From a virus: a DNA stretch of 22,219 bases. Below, piece by piece: positions 6,937-22,219 of this stretch (position 1 is the stretch's first letter; the number at the start of each line of letters is the position of its first letter). The notes below the pieces were generated by a model. The model was not told the DNA's origin. It saw only the letters and a list, made by a program, of their open reading frames with translations, and ran no database searches. The DNA lies in the IMG/VR virus record IMGVR_UViG_3300006736_000103, positions 1-22,219 of that record. One strand, given 5' to 3'. Position numbers and translations under genes: made by a program.

Positions 6937-7188
6937 TTATCGTAATAATAGATTCCAGATGTTCAGTATTCCCAGCCCGGCAAGGAACGCCACGAGAACG
7001 AAAAACCGCTTACCCAGACTCGATACATCTTCCCGCACTTTGCAAGTATGGTATCTGGTTTCGAGGAAGCCCTCCATAATTTCCTTCGCTCCCTCCCTAC
7101 CTCCTTCGCGGGCCACGTCCTTCACCCACTCCTCCAAGGGCACGGGGATGTTTATCTTCGAACCGTTTATATCATTCACCTCGCTCAT
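6937..7188 (-). CDS. small membrane-anchored protein, XhlA/holin-like in layout
   Basis: An 83-residue protein with a polar, charged N-terminal two-thirds (WVKDVAREGGREGAKEIMEGF) and one C-terminal hydrophobic segment at about residues 61-82 ending in a single Arg. The layout, a short coiled-coil or helical stretch followed by a C-terminal membrane helix, is like XhlA-type holin partners, but I see no diagnostic motif. Its ATG overlaps the glycosyltransferase stop (ATGA) and its stop is 1 nt from the connector start, so it is co-translated with neck genes. That is an unusual place for a lysis gene. It could also be a membrane-associated morphogenesis factor. Confidence 0.6.
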   Translation of the reverse strand: MSEVNDINGSKINIPVPLEEWVKDVAREGGREGAKEIMEGFLETRYHTCKVREDVSSLGKRFFVLVAFLAGLGILNIWNLLLR

Positions 7189-8357
7189 GCTGCTTTTAGC
7201 TCCTTAAACAAATCTGCGAATGATTGTGCGGTTTTCCTCACATCAAATTCCCGTTCAGCCGTTGCCCGATTCTCTTTCTTCTTCTCCGGTGACCTTTCCT
7301 CCCAACATCGCTCCATCGCCTCGACGAACTCCGGCAGGTTCTCCGGGTCAGCCGAGTATGGGGTGTAAGGATTCTGACTGCCCGCGACCACGCTCAACCC
7401 GCAGGCCATCGCCTCTCGGATTGTCCTCGTCGCCATTACGTGCGGGGTGATAAGCATATCCGCCACGTTGTAGAATCTTTCTAGGTTCGGAACGATAGGG
7501 GACACCTCGCCCAGCACTCCCCGTTCCTTCAGGCATTCCATTATCACGCCTCGACCACGATCATTATTGTCAACACCGTACATATGTAGTTTCGCCTTTG
7601 GGTGCTTCTCTGCGAACAACGCGAAGGCGTGTATCACGTGGAACGGGTCCTTGTCCTTGCGCCAAATGTCAGCGACCATTACGTTGATCTCGCCGCGGTG
7701 TTCACCGTAGTCGTATTCCGATTCCGTCGGCTTCCAGAAGTCCAAATCGACGAACGGGGTGAACACCCGCACGTCCTTGAACAACAGTTGCCAGTAATGC
7801 TCGAATCCCGGCCACAGGGTTACCATGACTTTCCATCGGTCATCCTTGTTCATCTTCTTGTACATTTGATAGATCGGCGTCTCACCACTACGCTCTATCC
7901 TGTATGAACTGTTCGGTCTACCGTGCGCCACGTGAATTCTCGGGGCGTTGACTTTATCAAACCGCTCGTCCAGTCCGGTGTGAGACACTATCACATCGCT
8001 CTGTTCAGCGAATTCCCACGGGGCCACGAGAACCCCTCTGTCTGCGGACCACGCGGGCGGGCGCGTGCCGATGTTCCGTTCGCCTACCACAAAGTCCACT
8101 TCCTTCTTGCAGTTCGGACACACGCCCTTGTGCTTTATCAGTCGTCTTCGCCCCTTCACCTCATACACGGAGGGCTGGGGGTCGAATATCGCGGCGTTGA
8201 TACCGAGTTCCCGCTCTGCCAACACCAGTTCGCGAGCCGTCTCGTAAAGGCCACACTGATGCGGGGTGGTCGGTGCAACATGTACGACTTTCATCTTCCG
8301 CTTACGCCGCCGCATTTTCCGACGCTGTTGTTCCCGTTGTTCTTTCTTGATGTTCAC
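7185..8357 (-). CDS. GT4-like glycosyltransferase
   Basis: A GT-B-fold glycosyltransferase of about 390 residues, probably transferring a sugar from a nucleotide-sugar donor. Seen: KVVHVAPTTPHQCGLYETA (N-terminal Rossmann strand and Gly-rich turn), INVMVADIWRKDKDP (start of the C-terminal domain), AKLHMYGVD, FYNVADMLITPH and IREAMACGLSVVAG, the last being the usual donor-site E-x-A-G-P/L-V-V-A region. A CPNC knuckle (CPNCKKEV) lies in the N-terminal domain, which is unusual. I chose GTG at 8357: it overlaps the upstream stop as TAGTG with GGAG upstream. ATG at 8315 or 8294 are alternatives that drop a Lys/Arg-rich leader. It sits among head genes, so a virion protein may be the acceptor; this is inference. 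Confidence 0.83.
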   Translation of the reverse strand: MNIKKEQREQQRRKMRRRKRKMKVVHVAPTTPHQCGLYETARELVLAERELGINAAIFDPQPSVYEVKGRRRLIKHKGVCPNCKKEVDFVVGERNIGTRPPAWSADRGVLVAPWEFAEQSDVIVSHTGLDERFDKVNAPRIHVAHGRPNSSYRIERSGETPIYQMYKKMNKDDRWKVMVTLWPGFEHYWQLLFKDVRVFTPFVDLDFWKPTESEYDYGEHRGEINVMVADIWRKDKDPFHVIHAFALFAEKHPKAKLHMYGVDNNDRGRGVIMECLKERGVLGEVSPIVPNLERFYNVADMLITPHVMATRTIREAMACGLSVVAGSQNPYTPYSADPENLPEFVEAMERCWEERSPEKKKENRATAEREFDVRKTAQSFADLFKELKAA

Positions 8358-9679
8358 TAGGCTGCAACTCCCACTCCCGTTCCCACGGGACTGTTTCTGC
8401 GGCGAACGTCCGTACTGTTCCCGCCTAAATCTTTGGTGGCTTCCAACCATAGAACACCTGTCACGTCCACATCCGAAACTGCTCCGCCGTATATGATCGC
8501 CCTATTTGAAGTCGTAGTGGAACAACCTGTTCCTCTTATCGTTCCCGTACTGGTTATACGAGCCTCGTCTAAAACCATATGATGCCCGTTACCCCCAGCT
8601 ACTTCACCCATTGAACTTATATTAAATTGGCCTGTGCCAAGGGTCAGCCGCCCATCCTCCGAAGGATTAGGTGATGCCGCATTACCAAACTCCACGTCGC
8701 CCAAGTCGCCGCCCGCGCCGTCGGTAAAGGTAAGGCCAGAGAAGGTGTTCCCAGACCCTCGCAACCGGAGCGTCGCACATTCCAATCTTGCCGACTGAGT
8801 TATTGTGAAGCCGGGACTCCCGCCACCAAGATACAACAGCACATTGGGACACAGGATTGGAGTATTGTTTGAACGGGAAGCCGCTTGCCACACAAGAACC
8901 GTCCCGGTTGTCACCGTGCCCTGTATGTCAAGAAAGTTATTTGCCGGTGGTGTAGTCGCATAAAGATAATCGTCTTCCCCATCGCCCCCAATAGTTGCCC
9001 CCGCCTGAACGGTTATCTTACTAGCATCCACCCTATCTGTACGGGTAATATTTGCACCACTCACGACAACATAATGAGCCATTTCATGTGTTGTGGTATT
9101 CCAATCAGCATCGTTCGTTCCGCTATGATAAAAGGTTCCACTATTGGATAGCGTCCCTCCAGCATAGGATAGATCACCCTTAACAACAGCATCATTACTC
9201 GCCATATTAAACGTGCCTGTCGTCATCAAAAGATTCTCACAATACAAATCGTCAGTCTGTGTGTGAGTTCCCCCCGTGTTTATTTCATAATGCCCATCGG
9301 AAACCGTATTGCACGTAATGAGGCCCGTACCGTTCAACAGGAACTCCATGCCCGTGCAGTCCGACATCCCGGCAGTCTTCACGAGGTCACTTTGGCATTC
9401 TATCTTGAAGTCCGCCGTCGCGACAACTTTTCCACCAAGGACGCACCGCCCGTTCACGTCGATCACCCTCTCCGCACCGGCAGTCTCCGTTAAAACCCCG
9501 GTGTAGTTCGTCATATCCATCCCGGCCAACTCCACGTTCGCTTGCGTGACGTTGAGCGTCACGTTGCCGGATGTGTCGGAGTATTCCGTGGTGTCGGCGT
9601 CGGAGGGGATCAGACCGCCGATCCACGTTCCGCCAACCACATAATTACCACCACCAGCAGTGGGTTTAACATTCGCCAT
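8357..9679 (-). CDS. beta-repeat virion protein, possible head fibre or decoration
   Basis: A 440-residue Gly/Thr/Asn-rich protein with no charged helical regions. The start (MANVKPTAGGGNYVVGGTWIGGLIPSDADT) is typical of phage proteins with parallel beta-helix or beta-solenoid folds. Many short repeated strands follow (GTFNMASNDAVVKGDLSYAGG, GGTLSNSGTFYHSG, ARLECATLRLRGSGNTFSGLTF, LTLGTGQFNISSMGEV, ITSTGTIRGTG). I see no catalytic motif. It lies directly upstream of the glycosyltransferase (TAGTG overlap) and downstream of small capsid-proximal genes, so a head fibre, a decoration protein, or a glycosylated surface protein is plausible. A role in host binding cannot be read from the sequence alone. 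Confidence 0.7.
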   Translation of the reverse strand: MANVKPTAGGGNYVVGGTWIGGLIPSDADTTEYSDTSGNVTLNVTQANVELAGMDMTNYTGVLTETAGAERVIDVNGRCVLGGKVVATADFKIECQSDLVKTAGMSDCTGMEFLLNGTGLITCNTVSDGHYEINTGGTHTQTDDLYCENLLMTTGTFNMASNDAVVKGDLSYAGGTLSNSGTFYHSGTNDADWNTTTHEMAHYVVVSGANITRTDRVDASKITVQAGATIGGDGEDDYLYATTPPANNFLDIQGTVTTGTVLVWQAASRSNNTPILCPNVLLYLGGGSPGFTITQSARLECATLRLRGSGNTFSGLTFTDGAGGDLGDVEFGNAASPNPSEDGRLTLGTGQFNISSMGEVAGGNGHHMVLDEARITSTGTIRGTGCSTTTSNRAIIYGGAVSDVDVTGVLWLEATKDLGGNSTDVRRRNSPVGTGVGVAA

Positions 9680-12119: not shown

Positions 12120-13223
12120 TTATGCGCTGATGCCCTTGATAACTACGAAGGCTTCAGGCTGTTTGGGCAGGCAACCAACATATTTAACCAGCCGAATCCA
12201 AACCTGATCGGCCGCGAACGCCGTGTCCGCTTCGGTACTGGTATCAATACGCAACCCGCCATTTTCACCAATGAGGAACTCGCCCCAGTTGCCGCCGACG
12301 ATGTAGCTCTCGTTCGCGGCGGGACGCGCGGAGGCAATCGGAACCTGCGTGGTGGTCTTCAGCGGCGAACCATACAGAGTCGGAATCCGAGCCGCTCCAG
12401 CGTTATCCGCATAGATGTACCGGCCTTCGGCGTCCTTCAACTGACGGAGAGTGTTGACCGTGCGCGGGGCGGTAATCCAACCGTTCACCCGCAGCGCGCC
12501 GTTACAACTATTCTCGACCTGATATTCAGCATCCAGAATATTGTCGAAGTCAACCACGGCACTCAGGTCCGTCGAGTTCACCCGCAAATTGTAGTACAAC
12601 CCGAGAGGCTTTTCTCCACCTGTGCCTTCCAAGAACACTTTATCCTCTTCCAACGCCAGTGCCTTGGCTAGTTGCTGTCGCACCAGTGCGTCGATGCTGA
12701 TGTTAGCGTTCATCAACAGCTCTCGGGACATCTTATACAAACACACAGCCTTCTTGGCTTCGAGCGTGTCGTCCCCGAACTCCAGCGTGGTGTCCTCAGT
12801 TATCGCGGTGTTCTCGCTGCCCCAACTGATCACCGGGCCGGTATTAACTCGGTTGAACCGAATCTTGTCCGTCTCCATCTGAATGACCTGCACGCCCGGC
12901 ATCGAACGCACAACCGAGGTCGCCTGAAGGAGGGGGATGATCTCACTGGACAACTGCGTGGGGACGAAAACCCCGCCGCGGTGCCCGTGGTCCTGACTGA
13001 GTGCCTTCTGGAACATGCCCTTTTCGATCTCGGCTTCGTCCCAAATGCCCAAACATACGCCGCGGAGATACTTGCTGATCGAGGCGTTCTTTTTGACCAC
13101 CTCAATATGCGGGTCTCCGCCGCTCTTGCGTAAGTTTACCTTCGTGTTCGCGGCGATGCTCTTGCGGAAAGTTTCCCTCAGCCGCTTTTTAAGGGCCACT
13201 TTCTGTTTAGCTGTCATTTTCAT
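12120..13223 (-). CDS. major capsid protein, HK97 fold
   Basis: A 367-residue HK97-type major capsid protein that assembles the icosahedral head. The N-terminal ~65 residues are basic and helical (a scaffold-like delta-domain). The capsid domain starts near 'GGVFVPTQLSSEIIPLLQATSVVRSMPGVQ'. Familiar features follow: 'ISWGSENTAITEDTTLEFGDDTLEAKKAVCLYKMSRELLMNANISIDALVRQQLAKALALEEDKVFLEGTGG' in segments, 'GWITAPRTVNTLRQLKDAEGRYIY', 'LYGSPLKTTTQVP', 'YIVGGNWGEFLIGENGGLRID' and the C-terminal 'KQPEAFVVIKGI'. AAAGGAAG lies upstream of ATG 13223. It follows the scaffold/protease-like genes and precedes decoration genes, as expected. Confidence 0.95.
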   Translation of the reverse strand: MKMTAKQKVALKKRLRETFRKSIAANTKVNLRKSGGDPHIEVVKKNASISKYLRGVCLGIWDEAEIEKGMFQKALSQDHGHRGGVFVPTQLSSEIIPLLQATSVVRSMPGVQVIQMETDKIRFNRVNTGPVISWGSENTAITEDTTLEFGDDTLEAKKAVCLYKMSRELLMNANISIDALVRQQLAKALALEEDKVFLEGTGGEKPLGLYYNLRVNSTDLSAVVDFDNILDAEYQVENSCNGALRVNGWITAPRTVNTLRQLKDAEGRYIYADNAGAARIPTLYGSPLKTTTQVPIASARPAANESYIVGGNWGEFLIGENGGLRIDTSTEADTAFAADQVWIRLVKYVGCLPKQPEAFVVIKGISA

Positions 13224-14718: not shown

Positions 14719-14738
14719 CCAATCGTGAAACCTCAACA

Positions 14739-14754
14739 GGGAAAGAAAACTGAG
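14739..14754 (+). promoter_or_regulatory. translation-initiation cassette, copy 2
   Basis: GGGAAAGAAAACTGAG precedes ATG 14755. It is preceded by GTGAAACCTCAACAG, a leader also seen in variant form before 17635 and 18065. It favours ATG 14755 over the in-frame GTG 14725. Confidence 0.75.
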
Positions 14755-15984
14755 ATGAGCAACGAGACAAAGACAGACGGCTGGTTTCCGGTCAACCTCT
14801 TAGACAACCTGCAAGAGAAGATCGCCCGGCTGAACCGACGGGCAGCACGGCTCGGGCTTGAGCCGCTGGAACTGATAGTAACTGACGAGCGAGAAGTAAT
14901 GCCCGTCGGCGAGATTCAGGGCTGGGACGGGAACACCGGACTTCCCTGCTCCCATACCATCTTCCACACCTGCGCCAGAGTACAGGTCATCGGCAAGGCC
15001 CCGAAGCTGCACGGGTGGTTCTTCGTGGCACGCATCGAACATACAGACAACACCAACCTCCTCTACTCAGTGCCGAACGAAACCGTGCCAGACGAGTACT
15101 GGCAAGCTGAGGCATGGTGCGATCACTGCCAAACCACACGCCGCCGGAACGACACGTTCGTTGTTCGCAACGAAGAGGGCGAGTACAAGCAAGTCGGTTC
15201 CTCCTGCATCAAGGACTTTCTGGGTCACGACATCCCCCTCGGCTTCTGGCGGGTCTTCCGAGACATGGCCGATACCGACTGGCTGGACAAGAACTGCTAC
15301 CCCCCGACGGCACGGGAATTCGGCTTGGAGGGCATTCTCAATCTCACCGCCGCCGTCATCCACAAGTTCGGTTGGAGAAGCCGACAGACAGCAGAGCTGG
15401 AATGCAAGGAAGCCACATCAGACACCGTGAGTAACTATTACTTCCACCCGCCGACCAAAGAGCAGAACAGGGTACAAGTTACTGACACCGACAAGGAACA
15501 GGCGAAGGCCGCTCACCAATGGGCTGCTGCACTGACCGACGAGCAGACCACCGGTAATAACTACCTGACAAACCTCCGAGCCATCGCCCAGAACGGAACG
15601 GTGACCGACAGAAGTTGGGGCATCGGCTGCTCCATCATCATCGCCCACAAGCACGAAGTCGAGCGTCGTCTCCGTGCGAAACTGGCCTCACAGCGTCAGG
15701 CCACCTGCGAGTGGATCGGTGAGGTCGGACAGCGAATAGAGATGAAGGTTCAATGTCTGCTGGTGAAGGAAATGGAAAGTCAGTTCGGAGTCACCACCCT
15801 GCACAAGATGGTTGATGAGGACGGGAACGAGATGGTGTGGTTTGCCAGCGGGACCCACAACAACCTCAACACCAACGAATGGTACAAGGTCAAGGCGACT
15901 GTAAAGAATCACGACACCTTCCGGGACGTGAGGCAAACCAAGATCAATCGGGTGAAGGTCGTCGAAGAACTGGGAGCCGTATAA
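14755..15984 (+). CDS. zinc-ribbon and OB-like protein, nucleic-acid-binding candidate
   Basis: A 409-residue protein, the largest in the block. An N-terminal helical part (LQEKIARLNRRAARLGLEPLEL) is followed by a beta-rich part. Then a cysteine unit 'WCDHCQTTRRRNDTFVV', followed by 'GEYKQVGSSCIKDFLGHD', forms a C-x2-C ... C arrangement seen in phage proteins of unknown function. The C-terminus (WFASGTHNNLNTNEWYKVKATVK, then HDTFRDVRQTKINRVKVVEE) has an OB-fold-like 'G.v..h..y.g..qT.i.R' pattern. Together these suggest binding of nucleic acid or a related substrate, but no enzymatic motif is visible. In-frame GTG 14725 is an alternative start; the cassette favours 14755. Confidence 0.72.
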   Translation: MSNETKTDGWFPVNLLDNLQEKIARLNRRAARLGLEPLELIVTDEREVMPVGEIQGWDGNTGLPCSHTIFHTCARVQVIGKAPKLHGWFFVARIEHTDNTNLLYSVPNETVPDEYWQAEAWCDHCQTTRRRNDTFVVRNEEGEYKQVGSSCIKDFLGHDIPLGFWRVFRDMADTDWLDKNCYPPTAREFGLEGILNLTAAVIHKFGWRSRQTAELECKEATSDTVSNYYFHPPTKEQNRVQVTDTDKEQAKAAHQWAAALTDEQTTGNNYLTNLRAIAQNGTVTDRSWGIGCSIIIAHKHEVERRLRAKLASQRQATCEWIGEVGQRIEMKVQCLLVKEMESQFGVTTLHKMVDEDGNEMVWFASGTHNNLNTNEWYKVKATVKNHDTFRDVRQTKINRVKVVEELGAV

Positions 15985-15986
15985 CC

Positions 15987-16001
15987 GAGAAGGAAACGAA
16001 A
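15987..16001 (+). promoter_or_regulatory. translation-initiation cassette, copy 3
   Basis: GAGAAGGAAACGAAA precedes ATG 16002 and decides this start over the longer upstream frame, which overlaps the previous gene. Confidence 0.75.
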
Positions 16002-16214
16002 ATGAGCGACAAGAATCCTCAACCCCGAACAGTCGGCGACAAGGTGTTCATCGGGAAGACCTCGTGGGTGAAATGCCCGAGGTGCGACGGGACCGGACTC
16101 GCAGTAGAGAGCAAAACCGTACATGATCCGGACGGTTCAGTCCGCGTGATCGAGAGCGAACTTTGCTCCCAGTGCTGCGGAACGAGCATGGTCAAAGAAG
16201 AGAAAGGAAACTGA
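16002..16214 (+). CDS. small zinc-finger protein (DnaJ-like CxxC pairs)
   Basis: A 70-residue protein with two CxxC pairs: CPRC followed by DGTG, and CSQC followed by CGTS. This resembles one repeat of the DnaJ cysteine-rich zinc domain (CxxCxGxG twice). It probably binds one zinc ion. Longer upstream frame (from 15837) lies inside the previous gene, so the cassette-defined ATG 16002 is preferred. There is one base between its stop and the next ATG (16216), a tight operon. Role unknown; a redox or protein/nucleic-acid interaction module is possible. Confidence 0.75.
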   Translation: MSDKNPQPRTVGDKVFIGKTSWVKCPRCDGTGLAVESKTVHDPDGSVRVIESELCSQCCGTSMVKEEKGN

Positions 16215-16215
16215 A
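16200..16215 (+). promoter_or_regulatory. translation-initiation cassette, copy 4
   Basis: GAGAAAGGAAACTGAA precedes ATG 16216 and overlaps the last codons of the zinc-finger gene. Confidence 0.75.
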
Positions 16216-16446
16216 ATGTGCGCGGACTACAACGCAGGTCTACAAGAGGATTCCGAAAAAGAAGAGATGAGTAAAATCTTCCGCTACGAATACATCCTCG
16301 GCACGAACAGGCCGGGGAAGGACGACAACAGTGAGCCTCGGCCATGCTGCCCACAAGTGATAAAAGCGGAAAGAAGAAAACGTATTGACACCTACCGGGC
16401 AATGGCCGAACACGAAATCCCCCTGCACATAGGAGTCAGACAATGA
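16216..16446 (+). CDS. small hypothetical protein
   Basis: A 76-residue charged protein that I do not recognise. It has an acidic N-terminal region (LQEDSEKEEMSK), a 'FRYEYILGTNRPGKDD' segment, and a basic helical part (KAERRKRIDTYRAMAEH). One Cys pair 'PCCPQ' is present, not a clear zinc motif. The conserved cassette at 16200-16215 supports its start, and its stop overlaps the next ATG (ATGA at 16443-16446), which supports translation of both. Confidence 0.7.
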   Translation: MCADYNAGLQEDSEKEEMSKIFRYEYILGTNRPGKDDNSEPRPCCPQVIKAERRKRIDTYRAMAEHEIPLHIGVRQ

Positions 16447-16562
16447 ACGTACTAATCTTCACCGTGGGAATCGTCGGCATTGGAGTCGCTGCCGTGTGGC
16501 TGGCCGATGCCGTCGAAGAACTGATCGAGCACGGCTACTACAAGAAAGGGCAACGCAGATGA
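16443..16562 (+). CDS. 39-residue single-pass membrane protein
   Basis: A short gene: MNVLIFTVGIVGIGVAAVWL forms a hydrophobic, Gly/Val/Ile-rich segment (about residues 3-22), followed by an acidic and aromatic tail (ADAVEELIEHGYYKKGQRR). It starts in an ATGA overlap with the 76-residue gene and ends in an ATGA overlap with the 69-residue gene, so it is embedded in a coupled run. Positive charge at the C-terminus suggests an N-out, C-in or similar single-span topology. Function unknown; small phage membrane proteins can modify host membrane or superinfection, but nothing here shows it. Confidence 0.68.
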   Translation: MNVLIFTVGIVGIGVAAVWLADAVEELIEHGYYKKGQRR

Positions 16563-16768
16563 CCACCAACCACGCGAACCTGACCGACTCAGTTCGAGCA
16601 TTAGAAGACGAGTTACTTCGCACCGTGGGAATCTCCAAACACGGGAGCGACAGATTCCGCCTCGTCGCAACGCTGGAGATCGACAACTTCCTCGACGATC
16701 TGATTCATTGGAACGATTGCTGTGGAGTATCCGAGGTGTTCGGTGTAACAGAATTCGGACCGGCATAA
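16559..16768 (+). CDS. small hypothetical protein
   Basis: A 69-residue acidic protein, unrecognised: 'LTDSVRALEDELLRTVGISKHGSDRFRLVATLEIDNFLDDLIHWNDCCGVSEVFGV'. Several amphipathic helices are likely. The frame is open upstream to 16496, but ATG 16559 in an ATGA overlap with the preceding gene is the better start. It is part of the tightly packed small-gene run. The 'DCCGV' Cys pair is isolated. Function unknown; perhaps a small inhibitor or regulatory protein. Confidence 0.68.
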   Translation: MTTNHANLTDSVRALEDELLRTVGISKHGSDRFRLVATLEIDNFLDDLIHWNDCCGVSEVFGVTEFGPA

Positions 16769-16783
16769 CATAGGAGAAATAAC

Positions 16784-16987
16784 ATGAGCGAAGGGATGTT
16801 GAAAAAACAGGCGGTGAAACGGTACGTGATGGATCGGGTTGCCTTGCTGAGACCGTACTGGGATTGCAGACAGTTCAGCGCGTCGGCGTACCCCGTGATC
16901 GAGGCCGAGTTCAGGGTGCTGTTAGACCGAATGATCGAGAGACAGCCCACGCTCGGCAAAACCTTCAAGCCAGAACTACTAGCGTAG
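16784..16987 (+). CDS. histone-fold-like small protein (tentative)
   Basis: A 67-residue protein preceded by TAGGAGAAATAAC, so the start is well supported. The C-terminal half 'FSASAYPVIEAEFRVLLDRMIERQPTLGKTFKPELL' resembles the helix and 'G-K-T-[FIV]-K-P-E-[DL]-L' end of small bacterial and phage histone-fold (NFYB/DUF1931-like) proteins, which read 'vsadAye.LdakV.elLd.aieRA..nGrkTvkpeDL'. The N-terminal part (KKQAVKRYVMDRVALLRPYW) would be the first helix. If right, it would bind DNA as a dimer. The similarity is a pattern match by eye and the Asp of the usual ending is absent, so confidence in the fold is low; the gene itself is convincing. Confidence 0.72.
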   Translation: MSEGMLKKQAVKRYVMDRVALLRPYWDCRQFSASAYPVIEAEFRVLLDRMIERQPTLGKTFKPELLA

Positions 16988-16997
16988 AAGAAATGAA

Positions 16998-17209
16998 ATG
17001 AGCATAATGATAGCCGACCTCGAACGGGAAATGAAAAAGTCCGGCGAAACGTCGAGTGCCTAAAAATGCTGTGCGATTCGCTGGACAAAACCAAAGCGGA
17101 CAAAGACGGGCTGGTGATGAATCTGACCGCCGACCTCCAATCCGTGCGGCAGATGTCGCAGAGCATCGTGCTGGCAATGGACCGCCTCATTAGAACGTGG
17201 ACTTTCTAG
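16998..17209 (+). pseudogene. small coiled-coil gene broken by a frameshift
   Basis: Two short frames lie head to tail. The first (16998-17063) encodes 21 residues beginning 'MSIMIADLEREMKK'. The second (from within 17036, ending TAG 17209; ATG at 17066) encodes 'VRRNVECLKMLCDSLDKTKADKDG' and a helical region. Reading one extra A in the A5 run at 17034-17038 would join them into one continuous protein of about 70 residues: an amphipathic, coiled-coil-like protein. The break may be a sequencing error in the A run, a real mutation, or a shift by ribosome slippage at the G AAA AAG site. The second frame alone could be a 47-residue gene. Confidence 0.5.
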
Positions 17210-17219
17210 GAGAATGAAA

Positions 17220-17450
17220 ATGAGAACGATTAAAGTTGAACACATCCGAGAACCGCTGTGCCGCGTCATGGCAAACCTGAACCACCTGCGGGTTGCAGCC
17301 GCTCAGAAGCGGACGAAGCCCCGCGAAGTGGTCGCCCCGCATTGGGACTACAAGAATCTATACTGGGTCTGCCCTCTCTGCGGAATGGTGTACTTCGACT
17401 GGGAGCAGACGCTGCGGTGTATCAAGCGATGCGAGAAAGAAGGTGCGTGA
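17220..17450 (+). CDS. small zinc-finger-like protein
   Basis: A 76-residue protein with the C-terminal cysteine cluster 'CPLCGMVYFDWEQTLRCIKRC' in outline: C-x2-C, then C-x3-C. This probably binds one zinc ion. The N-terminal part is basic (KVEHIREPLCRVM, AAQKRTKPREVV). AGGAG at 17208-17212 is 7 nt before ATG 17220 and only 1 nt before ATG 17214, so 17220 is chosen. It is the last gene before the second promoter repeat. Function unknown; nucleic acid contact is plausible. Confidence 0.7.
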   Translation: MRTIKVEHIREPLCRVMANLNHLRVAAAQKRTKPREVVAPHWDYKNLYWVCPLCGMVYFDWEQTLRCIKRCEKEGA

Positions 17451-17469
17451 TGAGTTTTTTACCCCCCCT

Positions 17470-17599
17470 CCCAAAATACGCCATAAGTCTTTATACCACA
17501 AGGAGATAAAATCTTACAAATATTTCCGATTTTCTAAAGTTTTTTCTTGACGTTGCCGATATGTATGATAGAATACAGTTGTCATGGAAAAGGAAAACA
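17470..17599 (+). repeat. 130-bp promoter repeat, copy 2
   Basis: Second copy of the element at 14308-14437, offset 3162 bp, one mismatch. It follows the short zinc-finger gene and begins in a C-rich stretch like copy 1. It carries the same promoter and the same ATG (17584) near the predicted transcription start. The near identity means recent duplication, gene conversion, or selection to keep two promoters equal. Confidence 0.95.
17547..17574 (+). promoter_or_regulatory. sigma70-type promoter P2 of the plus-strand block
   Basis: TTGACG (17547-17552), 16-bp spacer, TAGAAT (17569-17574) with a preceding TGA; identical to P1. It would restart transcription for the genes from 17635 onward. Confidence 0.75.
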
Positions 17600-17618
17600 A
17601 CAAGATGAAAACTCAACA

Positions 17619-17634
17619 GGGAAAGGAAACTGAA
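17619..17634 (+). promoter_or_regulatory. translation-initiation cassette, copy 5
   Basis: GGGAAAGGAAACTGAA precedes ATG 17635 and selects it over ATG 17584 of the same frame. Confidence 0.8.
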
Positions 17635-18024
17635 ATGATGAAGAAAATTCAAACTCTGAAATGCGTACAGTGCGGCAAGGAACTGGTCGGAAACATGACT
17701 ACCGGCTCGGAAGATGAAGTAAAGTACGCTGAAGGCAAAATAACTGGACGGTTGAATTTCTGCTCTCAGGATTGCTGGGATGAATATGAATACGAACGCA
17801 CTTTCGATACCAACCCCAGAATGGCAATGGGGCTGGTCAAGATGATATCAAGTTTGAGTCATTTGGATACTGCCGTACGTGAAGAAAATGACTTTGACCG
17901 CGAATTTGTAGTTAAAGGAGTTCGGATAGTTGGACAGCCGGGAATCCCCACGAAGAAGGCCGAACTGATCCTCGACACCTTCGAAGATTCCAAGTATCGC
18001 ATAACGATTGAAAAGGTTTCGTAG
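17635..18024 (+). CDS. small zinc-ribbon-like protein
   Basis: A 129-residue protein with an N-terminal C-x2-C (CVQC, then GKEL) and 'FCSQDCWDEY' (C-x3-C). The pair spacing fits a zinc ribbon or treble-clef-like finger. The remainder is an unrecognised mixed alpha/beta region (EEYERTFDTNP-like, then REFVVKGVRIVG, KAELILDTFEDSKYRITIEKV). The upstream frame from ATG 17584 would give a leaderless 146-residue form. The cassette supports ATG 17635 (or 17638). It is the first gene of the P2 unit. Function unknown. Confidence 0.72.
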   Translation: MMKKIQTLKCVQCGKELVGNMTTGSEDEVKYAEGKITGRLNFCSQDCWDEYEYERTFDTNPRMAMGLVKMISSLSHLDTAVREENDFDREFVVKGVRIVGQPGIPTKKAELILDTFEDSKYRITIEKVS

Positions 18025-18048
18025 TTACCAAGCGTGAAACTCCTAACC

Positions 18049-18064
18049 GGGAAAGGAAACTGAA
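18049..18064 (+). promoter_or_regulatory. translation-initiation cassette, copy 6
   Basis: GGGAAAGGAAACTGAA precedes ATG 18065, preceded by GCGTGAAACTCCTAACC, a variant of the leader before copy 2. Confidence 0.8.
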
Positions 18065-18310
18065 ATGACGACCACACACGAACTTGAACTGATGAGAGAG
18101 GCCGAAACCGAAGCCGCCCACAATCGAGTGGCAATGATGAACGAATCTTTTGAGGCATGGGTGGAAGAGATGGAAGCAGAGATCAAACTTGAGAAAGAGG
18201 CGGACGACATCGCCGACGACATTGAAGAGTACATGGAATCGAAGGCCCTTGAAAATGAAGAACAGGCCCAGACATTCTGCAATGACTTCTCCAGCGGCGT
18301 GCAGTATTAG
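18065..18310 (+). CDS. small acidic coiled-coil protein
   Basis: An 81-residue, strongly acidic helical protein (ELELMREAETEAAHNRV, EAWVEEMEAEIKLEKEADDI, ADDIEEYMESK). It is not assigned to a family. The DNA encoding 'EAEIKLEKEADDI' (18172-18211) is repeated almost exactly at the 3' end of the 174-residue gene (19388-19427), so the C-terminal part is shared between two genes of the block. Acidic small phage proteins are often inhibitors or DNA mimics; this is only a possibility here. Confidence 0.72.
   Translation: MTTTHELELMREAETEAAHNRVAMMNESFEAWVEEMEAEIKLEKEADDIADDIEEYMESKALENEEQAQTFCNDFSSGVQY
18172..18211 (+). repeat. 40-bp duplicated coding segment, copy 1
   Basis: Matches 19388-19427 with one mismatch (position 31 of the segment). 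It encodes EAEIKLEKEADDI in the 81-residue gene. In the other copy the same frame ends with a stop right after ADDI. Confidence 0.9.
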
Positions 18311-18315
18311 AACAA

Positions 18316-18424
18316 GCGCGGGCATCAGCCCGCGCCTCACGGTCCAGCAGGGCCATGAGGCATGGGCTGATTAACCCAGTAGAAGGAAAGGAAACGAAAT
18401 GACCAAAGTTAGAACCCATCAAGA
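18316..18424 (+). repeat. 109-bp repeat with hairpin and gene start, copy 1
   Basis: Perfect or near-perfect repeat of 18823-18931 (offset 507). It comprises a strong hairpin GCGCGGGC-ATCA-GCCCGCGC (18316-18335), a second imperfect hairpin (CAGC...CCATG-AGG-CATGG...GCTG), the initiation cassette and the first codons MTKVRTHQ of the gene that follows. The hairpin has no T-run, so it is not a typical terminator; it may protect or regulate the mRNA. Confidence 0.92.
18383..18398 (+). promoter_or_regulatory. translation-initiation cassette, copy 7
   Basis: AAGGAAAGGAAACGAA precedes ATG 18399 and lies inside the 109-bp repeat. Confidence 0.75.
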
Positions 18425-18815
18425 CCTCGACGAACAAGGTAATGCATTCTGGATCATCGTCCGGCAACGAGGCGGGGCGAAGTTCCACCAGACCAATCCG
18501 AAGACGAAGGAGGTCATCACCTACGGTTCCCTCGGTGAGGCCCTCGACGCCGCCGATGCCCAAGAGGTGAAGGACCACGGACGATTCACCTACACCATCG
18601 TCAACTCCCCGGAGTCTGATCGTCCGATGTACCAGATCACGATCAGGAAGCGTGGGAACAGGCGGGGTGATCGCGGCCAGTTGGGTGAGACTCATTATTT
18701 CGAAAACTTGGACGGGACCAAATTCCGAACGCACGACAAGGCCAAGGCGACGAAGAAGGCCAAACTGTATAACGAGATCGCATCGTGGTGTGTCTTCAAG
18801 GTCGAGACCGTATAG
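18399..18815 (+). CDS. hypothetical protein with internal repeat
   Basis: A 138-residue protein with no recognised family. Two halves resemble each other: 'FWIIVRQRGGAKFHQ ... YGSLGEALDAADAQEV ... YTIVN' and 'YQITIRKRGNRRGDRG ... FRTHDKAKATKKAKL ... CVFKVETV', so it may be a duplicated small beta-alpha domain. Its first eight residues (MTKVRTHQ) are identical to the 174-residue protein because both genes start inside the 109-bp repeat. The hairpin and cassette upstream suggest its own mRNA leader. Function unknown. Confidence 0.72.
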   Translation: MTKVRTHQDLDEQGNAFWIIVRQRGGAKFHQTNPKTKEVITYGSLGEALDAADAQEVKDHGRFTYTIVNSPESDRPMYQITIRKRGNRRGDRGQLGETHYFENLDGTKFRTHDKAKATKKAKLYNEIASWCVFKVETV

Positions 18816-18822
18816 AGCAACG

Positions 18823-18931
18823 GCGCGGGCATCAGCCCGCGCCTCACGGTCCAGCAGGGCCATGAGGCATGGGCTGATTAACCCAGTAGAAGGAAAGGAA
18901 ACGAAATGACCAAAGTTAGAACCCATCAAGA
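18823..18931 (+). repeat. 109-bp repeat with hairpin and gene start, copy 2
   Basis: Second copy of 18316-18424. It follows directly after the stop of the 138-residue gene and gives the next gene the same leader, cassette and N-terminus. Confidence 0.92.
18890..18905 (+). promoter_or_regulatory. translation-initiation cassette, copy 8
   Basis: AAGGAAAGGAAACGAA precedes ATG 18906, inside repeat copy 2. Confidence 0.75.
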
Positions 18932-19430
18932 AGCGGATGCGTTGCGGCAAGAAGCGGCAGAGTGCGAGCAGCGTAGGCAAAAGTCAATCACCGACAGCGG
19001 GACCGATGGATTTGTAAGCCAGTGGGCAGATGGCCTGAACGCTCGGGTAGCCCGGCTGCAAGCCGACATTATCGAGGACGGCGGCGAGGCAACATTCACA
19101 GGGCTATTCAACCTAGAGGGTCGCCGAGTGCGAGCGAAGGTGATTGATGGCAAGTTCGGCCCGTGCTGGGCTTTCTGCGACGAGAACGACAAGTTCACTG
19201 GTCAATTCATTTCGGCTTTTCCCAAACGAGCGTCAACGATGATACGAAAAGGCTTCGAGGAGAAAGACGAACTCGCTCCGGCTCGCGCCAAGATTTGTGG
19301 CGGCAAAGGTCGAGGACTGAGAGGCGCGGCCAGTTGTTACGTTGCTGCTGTACGAACAGATGATGGGTATCCGAAGGACGCCATTACGGAAGCAGAGATC
19401 AAACTTGAGAAAGAGGCCGACGACATCTAA
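18906..19430 (+). CDS. hypothetical protein with a transferred C-terminal tail
   Basis: A 174-residue protein, last gene of the plus-strand block. It starts with MTKVRTHQ from the repeat, continues with a helical, Glu/Arg-rich region (ADALRQEAAECEQRRQK), a beta region 'ATFTGLFNLEGRRVRAKVIDGKFGPCWAFCDEND' with two Cys, and 'FPKRASTMIRKGFEEK'. The final residues (EAEIKLEKEADDI) are the duplicated segment shared with the 81-residue protein. The gene appears to be a mosaic of a shared start, a private core and a borrowed tail. Function unknown. A terminator follows at 19449. Confidence 0.72.
   Translation: MTKVRTHQEADALRQEAAECEQRRQKSITDSGTDGFVSQWADGLNARVARLQADIIEDGGEATFTGLFNLEGRRVRAKVIDGKFGPCWAFCDENDKFTGQFISAFPKRASTMIRKGFEEKDELAPARAKICGGKGRGLRGAASCYVAAVRTDDGYPKDAITEAEIKLEKEADDI
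19388..19427 (+). repeat. 40-bp duplicated coding segment, copy 2
   Basis: Matches 18172-18211 with one mismatch and ends at the stop of the 174-residue gene. The similarity stops exactly where the coding frame ends, which suggests recombination between the two genes. Confidence 0.9.
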
Positions 19431-19485: not shown

Positions 19486-19545
19486 TGGAGGCGGCGAGAA
19501 TTGAACTCGCGTTAGCCGTTGAATCGGCTCTTCCCTGTCGCCCCC
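19486..19545 (-). ncRNA. 60-nt tRNA-like element lacking a D-arm
   Basis: On the minus strand, a 7-bp acceptor-like stem (GGGGGCG with CGCCTCC, one G-T pair) and discriminator A enclose a perfect T-arm (GCGAG-TTCAATT-CTCGC) and an anticodon-like hairpin (AGCCG-ATTCAA-CGGCT, 6-nt loop). The normal D-arm is replaced by about 9 nt, 'ACAGGGAAG'. It begins at the last base of the phosphoesterase stop codon. The missing D-arm and 6-nt loop mean it is not a normal tRNA. The GGGGGCGACAGG start resembles the 5' end of tmRNA tRNA-like domains, where the D-arm is also reduced. It may be a tRNA remnant, integration-related, or a functional tRNA mimic. Confidence 0.5.
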
Positions 19546-20720
19546 TATCGTATCCCGCTCAAATCCCACCGGCAGAAATTATACCACCCGTGATCGGGGT
19601 GCGTGAGGAACGACACCTGATACGGCTTGCTCCATCTACCTGATATGGCGTCTAGTTCGGTGCTACCGCACAGGCAACCGCACATTATCCCGAAAGGACC
19701 TGCTCCTGCTTGATGCCAGTGCGCCCTCATTCTATCGTCAAATTTCCTACCGGCTCGCATTCTCTTTACTGCTTCCCGTCCGTCCTCTCTGGCAAACCCA
19801 CCGAACGGAAGTCCTTGATACGATCTCACGCTATCTCCGTGATCGGTCAAAATAATCTGTCCGCCAATATCTATCTCTGCTTTCTGTGATTTGTACTCAT
19901 GCCAGTGTACGTTCTTGTGGTCGCGGAGCAGCAGCCGCACCATCTCCGCGATGATGTGATTGTACGAGTTCGTGCTCCGCCGCTTAGACCCCTTCTTCTT
20001 GGTCAGCCGCGAGTGATTGTCGGTTTTGATAAAATGCACGTGAACGACATCGAAGTGGGCGCAGAACGGCGATATGAACTTCTCGGCCAGCAGGTGGCTC
20101 ACGTTCACCACAGCAACCGGGAGGGGGAACTCCGCGTACGTTATGAGTTCGTCGTGGATATTGCCGGTAACCATATCACCTAGAATCGGAATGTGGACCT
20201 CGTCGATACGATGACCGTGGCGTTCCGTGAGAATCCACTTGATCTCTTTGTCGGAAAGGAACGCCACCCGGCGTGCCGCGATATCAGTGTTGTACTTGTT
20301 GAACCCCTCCATCTCCTCTTCGTCAATCACCTCGCTGTAATGCCAGTCGGCCGCGGGCGCACACGCGGGCGTGTTGCGCTCGCTCGTGTGCGCGCGAATA
20401 GGCTTGACGAGTTTGGGGGGTGGGATGGTCTGCAACGCACTAAGAATCTCGTCGTTGAATTTCAATGACTCCCCATACCACTTGCGGAGGTGGGTATTGG
20501 TATTCTGGAGGGAACGTATCCTCGCCTCCGCTGCGGCCAGCCGCGACGCCACAGCCTCCTCATTCTTCACTTCCATAGCCACGTTGCCAACCGTCCCACG
20601 GGCGAACGTGAACCCCCGTTCCTTGAGGTTCCGATAAGCAGCCCGCACAGCCCACTCATTCGCCTTCAGCGAATCAACAATGATAGCCTTGTTATCTTCG
20701 GTCAGTTCATTTCTGGCCAT
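19545..20720 (-). CDS. metallophosphoesterase with N-terminal helix-turn-helix-like region
   Basis: A 391-residue calcineurin-like phosphoesterase. Metal-binding motifs in order: D125-x-H127 (ADWHYSEV), G181-D182 (ILGDMVTGN), N235-H236-x-R (TDNHSR), H294 (LTDHGDS) and H334-x-H336 (AHWHQAG). This set is that of Mre11/SbcD-type enzymes that cut DNA or other phosphodiesters. Residues about 1-55 (KANEWAVRAAYRNLKERGF, RGTVGNVAMEV) look like a helix-turn-helix, followed by a short coiled coil (55-95). AGGAG precedes ATG 20720. It is read after the lipoprotein protease. A role in DNA processing or recombination is inferred, not shown. Confidence 0.82.
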   Translation of the reverse strand: MARNELTEDNKAIIVDSLKANEWAVRAAYRNLKERGFTFARGTVGNVAMEVKNEEAVASRLAAAEARIRSLQNTNTHLRKWYGESLKFNDEILSALQTIPPPKLVKPIRAHTSERNTPACAPAADWHYSEVIDEEEMEGFNKYNTDIAARRVAFLSDKEIKWILTERHGHRIDEVHIPILGDMVTGNIHDELITYAEFPLPVAVVNVSHLLAEKFISPFCAHFDVVHVHFIKTDNHSRLTKKKGSKRRSTNSYNHIIAEMVRLLLRDHKNVHWHEYKSQKAEIDIGGQIILTDHGDSVRSYQGLPFGGFAREDGREAVKRMRAGRKFDDRMRAHWHQAGAGPFGIMCGCLCGSTELDAISGRWSKPYQVSFLTHPDHGWYNFCRWDLSGIR

Positions 20721-20741: not shown

Positions 20742-21527
20742 TTATACGCCTTTGCCCCGTAAGTCTTGAATTATTTTTTCATCCACGAAGATAAAAATTC
20801 CCATGTGCCACGCCGGAGTGGACCTCGGCCAGTTCAAATCCATGATGCCAACGATGCTGCTGATGATACCGATAAGCCTACCCTGCTCGTCAAAAATCCC
20901 CCCACCGGAATCCCCGAAGGAGATTCCACCTGAATAAACGCCCCTCGTGCGTTTGCTTTTCTCGTGTGTCAGGTCCCACCGACAGAACACCCCCTCGTTG
21001 TAACCCGGCATGCTTGACGATCCGGAGAACCCGCACTTGGACAGACGCTGTCCCATACGCATCCAAGGACGCATGAACGGAACGACTGCCGCTCTGGCTT
21101 TCCCTCTCGGTACAATAGCTTCAAGCAACGCTAAATCATTTACAAAATCCTGTCCAATCACTTTCGCAGACGCGATGTAGACAGGCTGCGGCTGGCCGAA
21201 CAAGTCGAAATCGTAGAACTCCACGACCAGTCTCGTCTGCAATTTGCGGGTTATGGGAGGCACGGCATGCGGGCGAACAATCACGCCCGTCATCGGTCTG
21301 AAGGGAACAAATTCAATCTTCCACAGGATGTGCGCCGCGGTGAGTATTTCAATCTTGTTCAGCTTCCACGACACCCATTTCACGCTCACCACGACACCGG
21401 ACCCCCGAAGGAAACTCACCGTTGGACGAACGACGTGGTTGCGAATGCGGAGCGAACGCAGGGGTTCGCCACAACCGATCACCATCAGCACCAACATAAA
21501 CGGGATGAGTCTCTTAATCAGGTTCAT
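20742..21527 (-). CDS. trypsin-like serine protease with lipoprotein signal
   Basis: A 261-residue protein with a type II signal peptide: basic start (MNLIKRLIPF), hydrophobic core, and lipobox V-I-G-C with the lipidated Cys19. The rest has an S1/trypsin-like triad: H66 in TAAHIL, D131 in NDLALLE and S207 in GDSGGG. Catalytic residue order and spacing fit a functional protease of modest length. It would be exported and anchored in a membrane, outside the cytoplasm. Its start lies inside the last 14 nt of the capsid protease gene, so it is translated with head genes. Lipoprotein proteases are unusual in phage head operons; superinfection exclusion or envelope modification are possible roles, both inferred. 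Confidence 0.85.
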   Translation of the reverse strand: MNLIKRLIPFMLVLMVIGCGEPLRSLRIRNHVVRPTVSFLRGSGVVVSVKWVSWKLNKIEILTAAHILWKIEFVPFRPMTGVIVRPHAVPPITRKLQTRLVVEFYDFDLFGQPQPVYIASAKVIGQDFVNDLALLEAIVPRGKARAAVVPFMRPWMRMGQRLSKCGFSGSSSMPGYNEGVFCRWDLTHEKSKRTRGVYSGGISFGDSGGGIFDEQGRLIGIISSIVGIMDLNWPRSTPAWHMGIFIFVDEKIIQDLRGKGV

Positions 21528-22219
21528 CCACGTCCTCCATTACCATGTCCGCGCTTCCGCTCATGCTGAACCCAGCGATCTTCCCTTCCTTCACCGCCTT
21601 CCACAATTCCTCCTGCTCCGGCGGAATGTAAGCACAGATGTACCAACTATGCTCGGGGATGGCCTCGCCGTTCTTCAACACCCTGTCGTCGGTGTAGAAA
21701 CACTCAACGATGGGTGTTGTAACCGCCCGGCCCTCGTGCATGATTTTCATCCGCCCGCCCGTGCTCACCATCCAGTTTTTCATCGCCGCGTAGATTTCCG
21801 GACCGGCTGCGTAGTCGCCTTGTTTGTCAACCTCCATCGCAGTGTACACGATGCCACCGACGATTCGCTCCTCTTCGGATTTGATGAAGGTGCTCTCCTT
21901 CTTCACCGCAGCCTCCACCCCCGTCTTGTACTTGTGGGACTTCAGCCACGTGCGCGCCTGCGCGGGCGTGAACTTACCATCGGAGAACCGTATCGACACG
22001 ACCTTCGACTTGCCTCCCTTGATTCCGAATATGGCGTGGATTCCGGAACCGAAGTGGTTGTTCTTACGGGCGAATGACGTGAACTTCTTGGAATCCAACT
22101 GCGCGGCGGCGTGCTCTCCGGGGTACGGCTTTGAAATGTAGTTCAGGGCAGGACCCCCAGAATCCCCTGTGTCGTCATCATCCTCCGGGTGACCTGACAC
22201 CCCATCCCCCACGAGATCG
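21514..22219 (-). CDS. XkdF-type capsid maturation protease (5' end beyond window)
   Basis: The frame is open to the right edge, so the N-terminus is outside the window. Two regions are visible. The first (YPGEHAAAQLDSKKFTSFARKNNHFGSGIHAIFGI ... RFSDGKFTPAQARTWLKSHKY, in segments) is a module often placed before phage prohead proteases. The second is a Peptidase_S78_2/XkdF-like protease: 'VYTAMEVDKQGDYA', 'IMHEGRAV' with the probable catalytic His, 'IPEHSWYICAYIPPEQEELWKAV' and 'GFSMSGSA' with the probable catalytic Ser. It would cut scaffold and capsid protein during maturation. It ends soon after the catalytic Ser segment, without the usual 'EISLVDRPAN' continuation, which instead begins the gene at 14173. 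Confidence 0.85.
   Translation of the reverse strand, partial: DLVGDGVSGHPEDDDDTGDSGGPALNYISKPYPGEHAAAQLDSKKFTSFARKNNHFGSGIHAIFGIKGGKSKVVSIRFSDGKFTPAQARTWLKSHKYKTGVEAAVKKESTFIKSEEERIVGGIVYTAMEVDKQGDYAAGPEIYAAMKNWMVSTGGRMKIMHEGRAVTTPIVECFYTDDRVLKNGEAIPEHSWYICAYIPPEQEELWKAVKEGKIAGFSMSGSADMVMEDVDEPD

Follow-up and report, generated by a model that had tools for sequence, protein, structure and literature searches.

Phage lysis of Gram-negative bacteria is usually explained by three steps, those of the holin, the endolysin, and the spanin. The HtrA protease DegS is anchored in the membrane, and phage T5 makes Llp, a receptor-blocking outer-membrane lipoprotein. In Listeria, a prophage-derived secreted metzincin and its lipoprotein partner (Mtz/Tim) raise the sensitivity to phage lysis and increase virion release about 5-fold (PMC8235301). 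Trypsin-like genes of phages have already been catalogued, as PHROG 9683, as named entries, and in a mention in PMC10783043. In the open-access literature, we found no description of a lipid-anchored phage trypsin or of a recurrent position of such genes in lysis cassettes.

A predicted lipid-anchored protease in a tailed-phage fragment

The stretch of DNA analyzed here (the window, 22,219 nt) is a 22-kb IMG/VR fragment of a tailed phage, with genes for an HK97-type capsid protein (12120-13223), a head-tail adaptor, a neck protein, and major tail proteins. On its minus strand, at 20742-21527, lies a gene for a putative lipoprotein of 261 aa with a trypsin-like (S1/HtrA-fold) protease domain. 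The open reading frame has an ATG start and its own Shine-Dalgarno sequence, GGAGG, at 21534-21538, 6 nt before the ATG and within the end of the upstream gene, and its codon-position GC resembles that of the neighboring genes. The protein was assigned to Pfam Trypsin_2 (PF13365) by both its profile score (E = 6.8e-10, 40.3 bits, above the gathering cutoff of 27.6) and a His-Asp-Ser triad with a GxSGG motif. The putative catalytic residues, His66 (TAAH, codon 21330-21332), Asp131 (NDLAL, codon 21135-21137), and Ser207 (GDSGGG, codon 20907-20909), showed no variation across 13 aligned phage homologues, and a profile match aligned the His, Asp, and Ser of this protease family with their catalytic counterparts in HtrA.

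The first 19 codons (21471-21527, minus strand) encode a predicted signal peptide and lipobox, MVIGC-GEP, in which Cys19 (codon 21471-21473) directly follows MNLIKRLIPFMLVL and the +2 residue is Gly, not Asp. All signal peptides in this study were assessed by simple rules, without a trained predictor; by this rule-based scan, the N terminus MNLIKRLIPFMLVLMVIGC-GEP looks like a typical lipoprotein signal, and MNLIKRLIPFMLVLMVIGC has a positive n-region, a hydrophobic stretch, and a lipobox of the L-x-[GAS]-C type. The lipobox (VIGC) and full triad that the first-pass annotation had pointed out are thus borne out by the open reading frame, the Cys19 of MVIGC, the Trypsin_2 match, and the 13-homologue alignment.

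An AlphaFold2 model, computed with the homologue alignment as input, reached a pLDDT of 81 and a pTM of 0.79, with one uncertain loop at residues 73-93. The model has the fold of an HtrA-type protease domain. Its best structural neighbors were DegS, DegP, and DegQ (Z about 25); for DegS, Z was 25.4 and the rmsd about 2.2 over 193 residues, and the best Foldseek match had an E value of 1.7e-9. Neither the profile search nor the model showed a PDZ domain, and the protease domain extends to the end of the chain, residue 261. Together, the lipobox, the triad, and the predicted fold support an exported, lipid-anchored envelope serine protease, and with it the earlier suggestion that the enzyme would act outside the cytoplasm. 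Two other identities were rejected: a spanin, either unimolecular or o-spanin, as the protein has a lone signal sequence and a catalytic domain and is without a C-terminal TM segment, and the RT-Protease of PADLOC, as only the protease part matched, weakly (6.9e-5, profile positions 355-484 of 506), and no reverse transcriptase domain is present.

We found no sequence-close relative of the protein in IMG/VR or GTDB genomes, and a tblastn search of INPHARED phages that admitted E values up to 10 likewise gave none. Its match to PHROG 9683 was weak (E = 9.2e-4) and covered the serine region only (residues 205-228).

The gene immediately upstream (21514-22218, minus strand), the 5′ end of which is cut by the contig end, encodes an XkdF-type head maturation protease (PF14550, 7.6e-15; phrog_3017, 3e-16), and its end overlaps the start of the trypsin gene by 14 nt. 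Downstream, 21 nt after the trypsin stop codon, is a gene for a metallophosphoesterase-type "exonuclease" with an N-terminal helix-turn-helix-like part (19545-20720, minus strand; phrog_284, 2.2e-36), which a custom HMM links to the genes that follow phage trypsins. The 14-nt overlap makes it plausible that the trypsin is, as the first-pass annotation claimed, translated along with the capsid protease. The term "head operon" of that annotation calls for caution, as a plus-strand block (14725-19430) separates the metallophosphoesterase gene from the scaffold and capsid genes. No lysis cassette was recognized on the 22-kb fragment.

Two further features of this region were observed. Residues 29-97 of the XkdF-type protein, ahead of the protease domain, resemble parts of phage capsid proteins, with about 40-43% identity to those of the Roseobacter phages CRP-82x/831 and the Synechococcus phages S-CBS1/S-CBS3, and represent a domain common to head protease and capsid genes. 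Also, the plus-strand neighbors at 18399-18815 and 18906-19430 share the start MTKVRTHQ and then diverge, as if a leader and start region had been duplicated.

Variable position of the gene among related phages

Capsid and exonuclease scans of IMG/VR yielded six related records (G001-G006) and three short fragments. Whole-record profile searches detected Trypsin_2 in G005 (93.5 kb, 73 bits) and G006 (103.8 kb, 53 bits), but gave no such match in G001-G004, among which G004 (87 kb) is the sole large record, or in the three short fragments; a Trypsin_2 lipoprotein is therefore encoded by two of the three larger records. The proteases of G005 and G006 have the lipoboxes MNLRRPKLFILALTAVVVLGC and MKKFLFLLFPVLLIGC, respectively, so a lipoprotein is predicted for each of the three trypsins of the phage group, including that of the window. 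Other lipobox candidates were rare in the genomes of the group, numbering 4 among about 360 non-overlapping ORFs, in a scan where the window gene itself was masked by a longer antisense ORF. The tree placed the window and G006 proteases as sisters (support 98/99). That of G005 stood apart, in a weakly supported grouping with the non-lysis protease L029; the branches of all three are very long. As the tree splits G005 from the other two, descent of the lipobox from one ancestor of the three lipoproteases is only a possibility. The G006 protease matched PHROG 9683 over positions 40-190 of 233 at 1e-11.

The position of the gene varies: it adjoins the XkdF gene in the window, lies downstream of the exonuclease gene in G006, among small accessory genes and about a dozen genes from XkdF, and is found past the tail genes in G005. 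Both G003 (a 16-kb fragment) and G004 have XkdF without a trypsin. The link to capsid proteases that the first-pass annotation had anticipated therefore does not hold, and we rejected a general linkage of trypsin genes of this type to capsid proteases, as G005, G006, and the distant homologues all place the protease elsewhere. On the other hand, similar proteases recur in phages, which speaks against the non-conserved passenger that the same annotation had named as its refutation; the gene is an accessory one, recurrent but not universal in the phage group, and no lone passenger.

In G005, the lipoprotease gene shares 20 nt with an overlapping ORF that combines a lipobox with a TM segment at the C terminus, the layout of a unimolecular spanin; the sole profile match of this ORF was a marginal one to a holin (E = 0.022). 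Searches of G004-G006 with phrog_7 and Amidase_2 recognized no endolysin.

In addition, G006 has a 170-aa ORF (L055:4769-5281) with a lipobox, a periplasmic helical part, a TM segment, and a basic cytoplasmic tail, an arrangement like that of a unimolecular spanin; it had no family match and lies about 50 kb from the trypsin gene. Directly 3′ of the G006 lipoprotease gene is a 360-aa gene (L018:10671-11753) with no Pfam or PHROG match, the product of which resembles by eye an alpha-barrel sugar-acting enzyme. Inside its structural block, the window has a glycosyltransferase-like gene (7185-8450; PF13692, 1.1e-6), and similar-looking genes are present in G005 (L020:17552-18772) and G006 (L018:3-389).

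Homologues in lysis cassettes

A scan with the three lipoproteases led to a podophage-like contig (L030), tblastn from this contig led to Sulfitobacter phages and the Microcystis phage Mae-JY35, and a final pattern scan added eleven further loci. Because many of these loci are closely related, they represent perhaps four to six independent lineages. In L030, the gene for a Sec-exported trypsin overlaps that for a lysozyme-type endolysin by 4 nt, and a holin gene follows. The gene order is endolysin, small TM proteins, XhlA, protease, and metallophosphoesterase in the Sulfitobacter phages, where the protease gene lies toward the integrase end, a frequent site of lysogenic-conversion genes; in Mae-JY35, it is amidase endolysin, TM protein, Rz-like protein, Rz1-like lipoprotein, TM protein, protease, and metallophosphoesterase. 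Among the eleven further loci, L048 and its group have the order endolysin, Rz, Rz1, TM protein, and protease, and endolysin-like genes were found upstream of the protease in L038, L039, L042, L044, L046, L047, and L048. Rz and Rz1-like genes were recognized in L043, L045, and L046 (by eye) and in L048 (by profile). As these four loci and Mae-JY35 have both the protease and Rz/Rz1-like genes, we dismissed the protease as a general spanin replacement.

A metallophosphoesterase gene lies 3′ of the protease gene in all eleven loci except L040, with an antisense ORF intervening in L043 and L045. The metallophosphoesterases that follow proteases belong to several PHROGs (704, 284, and 221); therefore, these loci are not one cassette copied unchanged. 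However, metallophosphoesterase genes of this kind also adjoin terminase genes in phages where no protease was detected, so the adjacency may mark only a module boundary, and we do not take it as proof of functional coupling.

The window protein is 16-22% identical to the lysis-cassette proteins, from which very long tree branches separate it. By the rule-based scan, the homologues outside the group of the window are Sec-exported and non-lipidated, looking like soluble periplasmic enzymes. Several other candidates were set aside. The soluble protease L029 has a zinc-ribbon-like part at its N terminus and is encoded beside recombinases, not in a phage lysis locus. INPHARED trypsins labeled Acinetobacter, Staphylococcus, Listeria, Salmonella, or "Bacteriophage sp." were excluded, as they probably stem from contaminating bacterial DNA or wrongly assigned contigs. 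Three such records that we inspected had a bacterial look, with HtrA-like genes surrounded by cytochrome, two-component, or metabolic genes. The phage-labeled records MW462191.1 (L026) and MT835515.1 (L035) look bacterial by gene content.

Possible roles and relation to known systems

On the basis of genomic context, we tentatively favor a membrane-anchored late envelope protease that aids lysis or virion release. The enzyme, of the trypsin/HtrA-domain type without a PDZ domain, would be synthesized late from the structural gene block, exported by Sec, cleaved by signal peptidase II, and then lipid anchored; in a Gram-negative host, the Gly at +2 would favor the outer membrane. There it would cleave host envelope proteins, upon which the envelope would give way and virions would be released, with the protease acting as an auxiliary to the holin-endolysin-spanin system and not as a replacement. 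We infer the lipidation, proteolytic activity, host type, timing, and substrate of the window protein, and likewise that it does the same job as its lysis-cassette homologues.

A lysis role is favored because the homologues sit in lysis cassettes and the G005 copy overlaps a spanin-like ORF, because both the window and most cassette loci have a metallophosphoesterase gene next after that for the protease, because the triad, predicted fold, and lipobox fit an anchored envelope protease and predicted lipoproteases recur in G005 and G006, and because the Listeria metzincin provides a precedent. It is weakened because the gene lies outside any recognizable lysis cassette in the group of the window, because the two endolysin profiles gave no match in G004-G006 and G004 is without Trypsin_2, because the window and cassette proteins are so distant in sequence, because the Sulfitobacter copy lies toward the integrase end, and because the metallophosphoesterase neighbor also occurs beside terminase genes. 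In addition, since several cassettes already have a full spanin pair, there is no obvious need for the protease in lysis. That the protease goes with lysis genes describes the context of the loci found and is not a statistical test against all phages.

A broader proposal, which we hold with more doubt, is that exported trypsin-like proteases may be a recurrent, undescribed part of tailed-phage lysis cassettes, lying beside holin, endolysin, and spanins and breaking envelope proteins at release, and that the versions in the window phage and in its relatives of 90-104 kb may be held in the membrane by a lipid anchor. Complete cassettes repeatedly end with the protease gene, which suggests that envelope protein links are also attacked. 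Cultured phages with such a protease exist, namely, Sulfitobacter phages pCB2047-A/C and NYA-2014a and Microcystis phage Mae-JY35.

It is also possible that the anchored protease cleaves a surface receptor, which would protect the infected cell from superinfection and stop progeny from being trapped on debris. Outer-membrane phage lipoproteins can block receptors, as T5 Llp does, a lipid-anchored protease would be suitably placed, and an accessory, fast-diverging gene is what would be expected of exclusion genes. However, the homologues lie inside lysis cassettes, one overlapping an endolysin gene, those beyond the group of the window look soluble and periplasmic rather than surface-anchored, and we found neither a receptor nor an early promoter or exclusion partner, all of which makes such a role unlikely in our estimation. 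The cutting of a superinfecting phage's receptor or tail, which the first-pass annotation had raised, gained no direct evidence, nothing in the sequence points specifically to exclusion, and the context of the homologues leads to lysis cassettes instead. If receptors are the target, superinfection exclusion would here take a proteolytic form, of which we found no description in the open-access literature.

The proximity of the model to DegS, DegP, and DegQ (Z about 25), the absence of the gene from the large relative G004, its varying position, and the weakly supported grouping of the G005 copy with the non-lysis L029 would all suit an accessory moron or host-manipulation gene, i.e., a captured HtrA-like enzyme that deals with protein stress in the periplasm or, during infection, cleaves a stress sensor or inhibitor, with no specific role in lysis or exclusion. 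We nevertheless regard this as rather improbable, as the protein has no PDZ or regulatory domain, and both the recurrent position at the end of lysis cassettes and the conservation of the triad at identities of 16-26% point to a function late in infection. A virion-related role, either in structural-protein processing, e.g., with the capsid protease whose gene it overlaps by 14 nt, or as a protein carried in the particle, is very improbable, as the signal peptide would direct the protease out of the cytoplasm, the site of head assembly, G004 has XkdF without the protease, and the gene lies away from the head genes in G005, G006, and the distant homologues.

Among known systems, the HtrA/Deg proteases (DegS, DegP, and DegQ) resemble the window protein in the predicted fold of the protease domain and in the periplasmic side of action. 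They differ in that the window protein has no PDZ domain, would be held by a lipid anchor instead of a TM helix, carries GDSGGG where GNSGG is usual in HtrA, and is encoded by a phage gene. PHROG 9683 ("protease," category "other"; Trypsin_2), found, e.g., in Sulfitobacter phages pCB2047-A, pCB2047-C, and NYA-2014a, likewise comprises small exported trypsin-like proteins with the triad of the window protein, which are encoded in a late-gene position and immediately 5′ of a metallophosphoesterase gene; its members differ in having a type I signal peptide, a conserved Cys pair (CSGT/HC), no lipobox, and a place in lysis cassettes, and the window protein is a predicted lipoprotein adjoining the capsid protease that matches their profile weakly (9e-4). 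Spanins (Rz/Rz1 and unimolecular) and XhlA are likewise envelope-targeted late proteins, some of them lipoproteins, and are encoded beside homologous proteases; spanins are not enzymes, however, while the window protein has a full catalytic triad, and several cassettes hold both spanins and a protease. T5 Llp (PMC9586334) is likewise a phage outer-membrane lipoprotein, but a receptor blocker and no protease. The Mtz/Tim pair of Listeria is, like the proposed enzyme, a phage-derived envelope protease system that promotes phage lysis and release, but it involves a metalloprotease, a Gram-positive host, and a separate lipoprotein substrate (PMC8235301).
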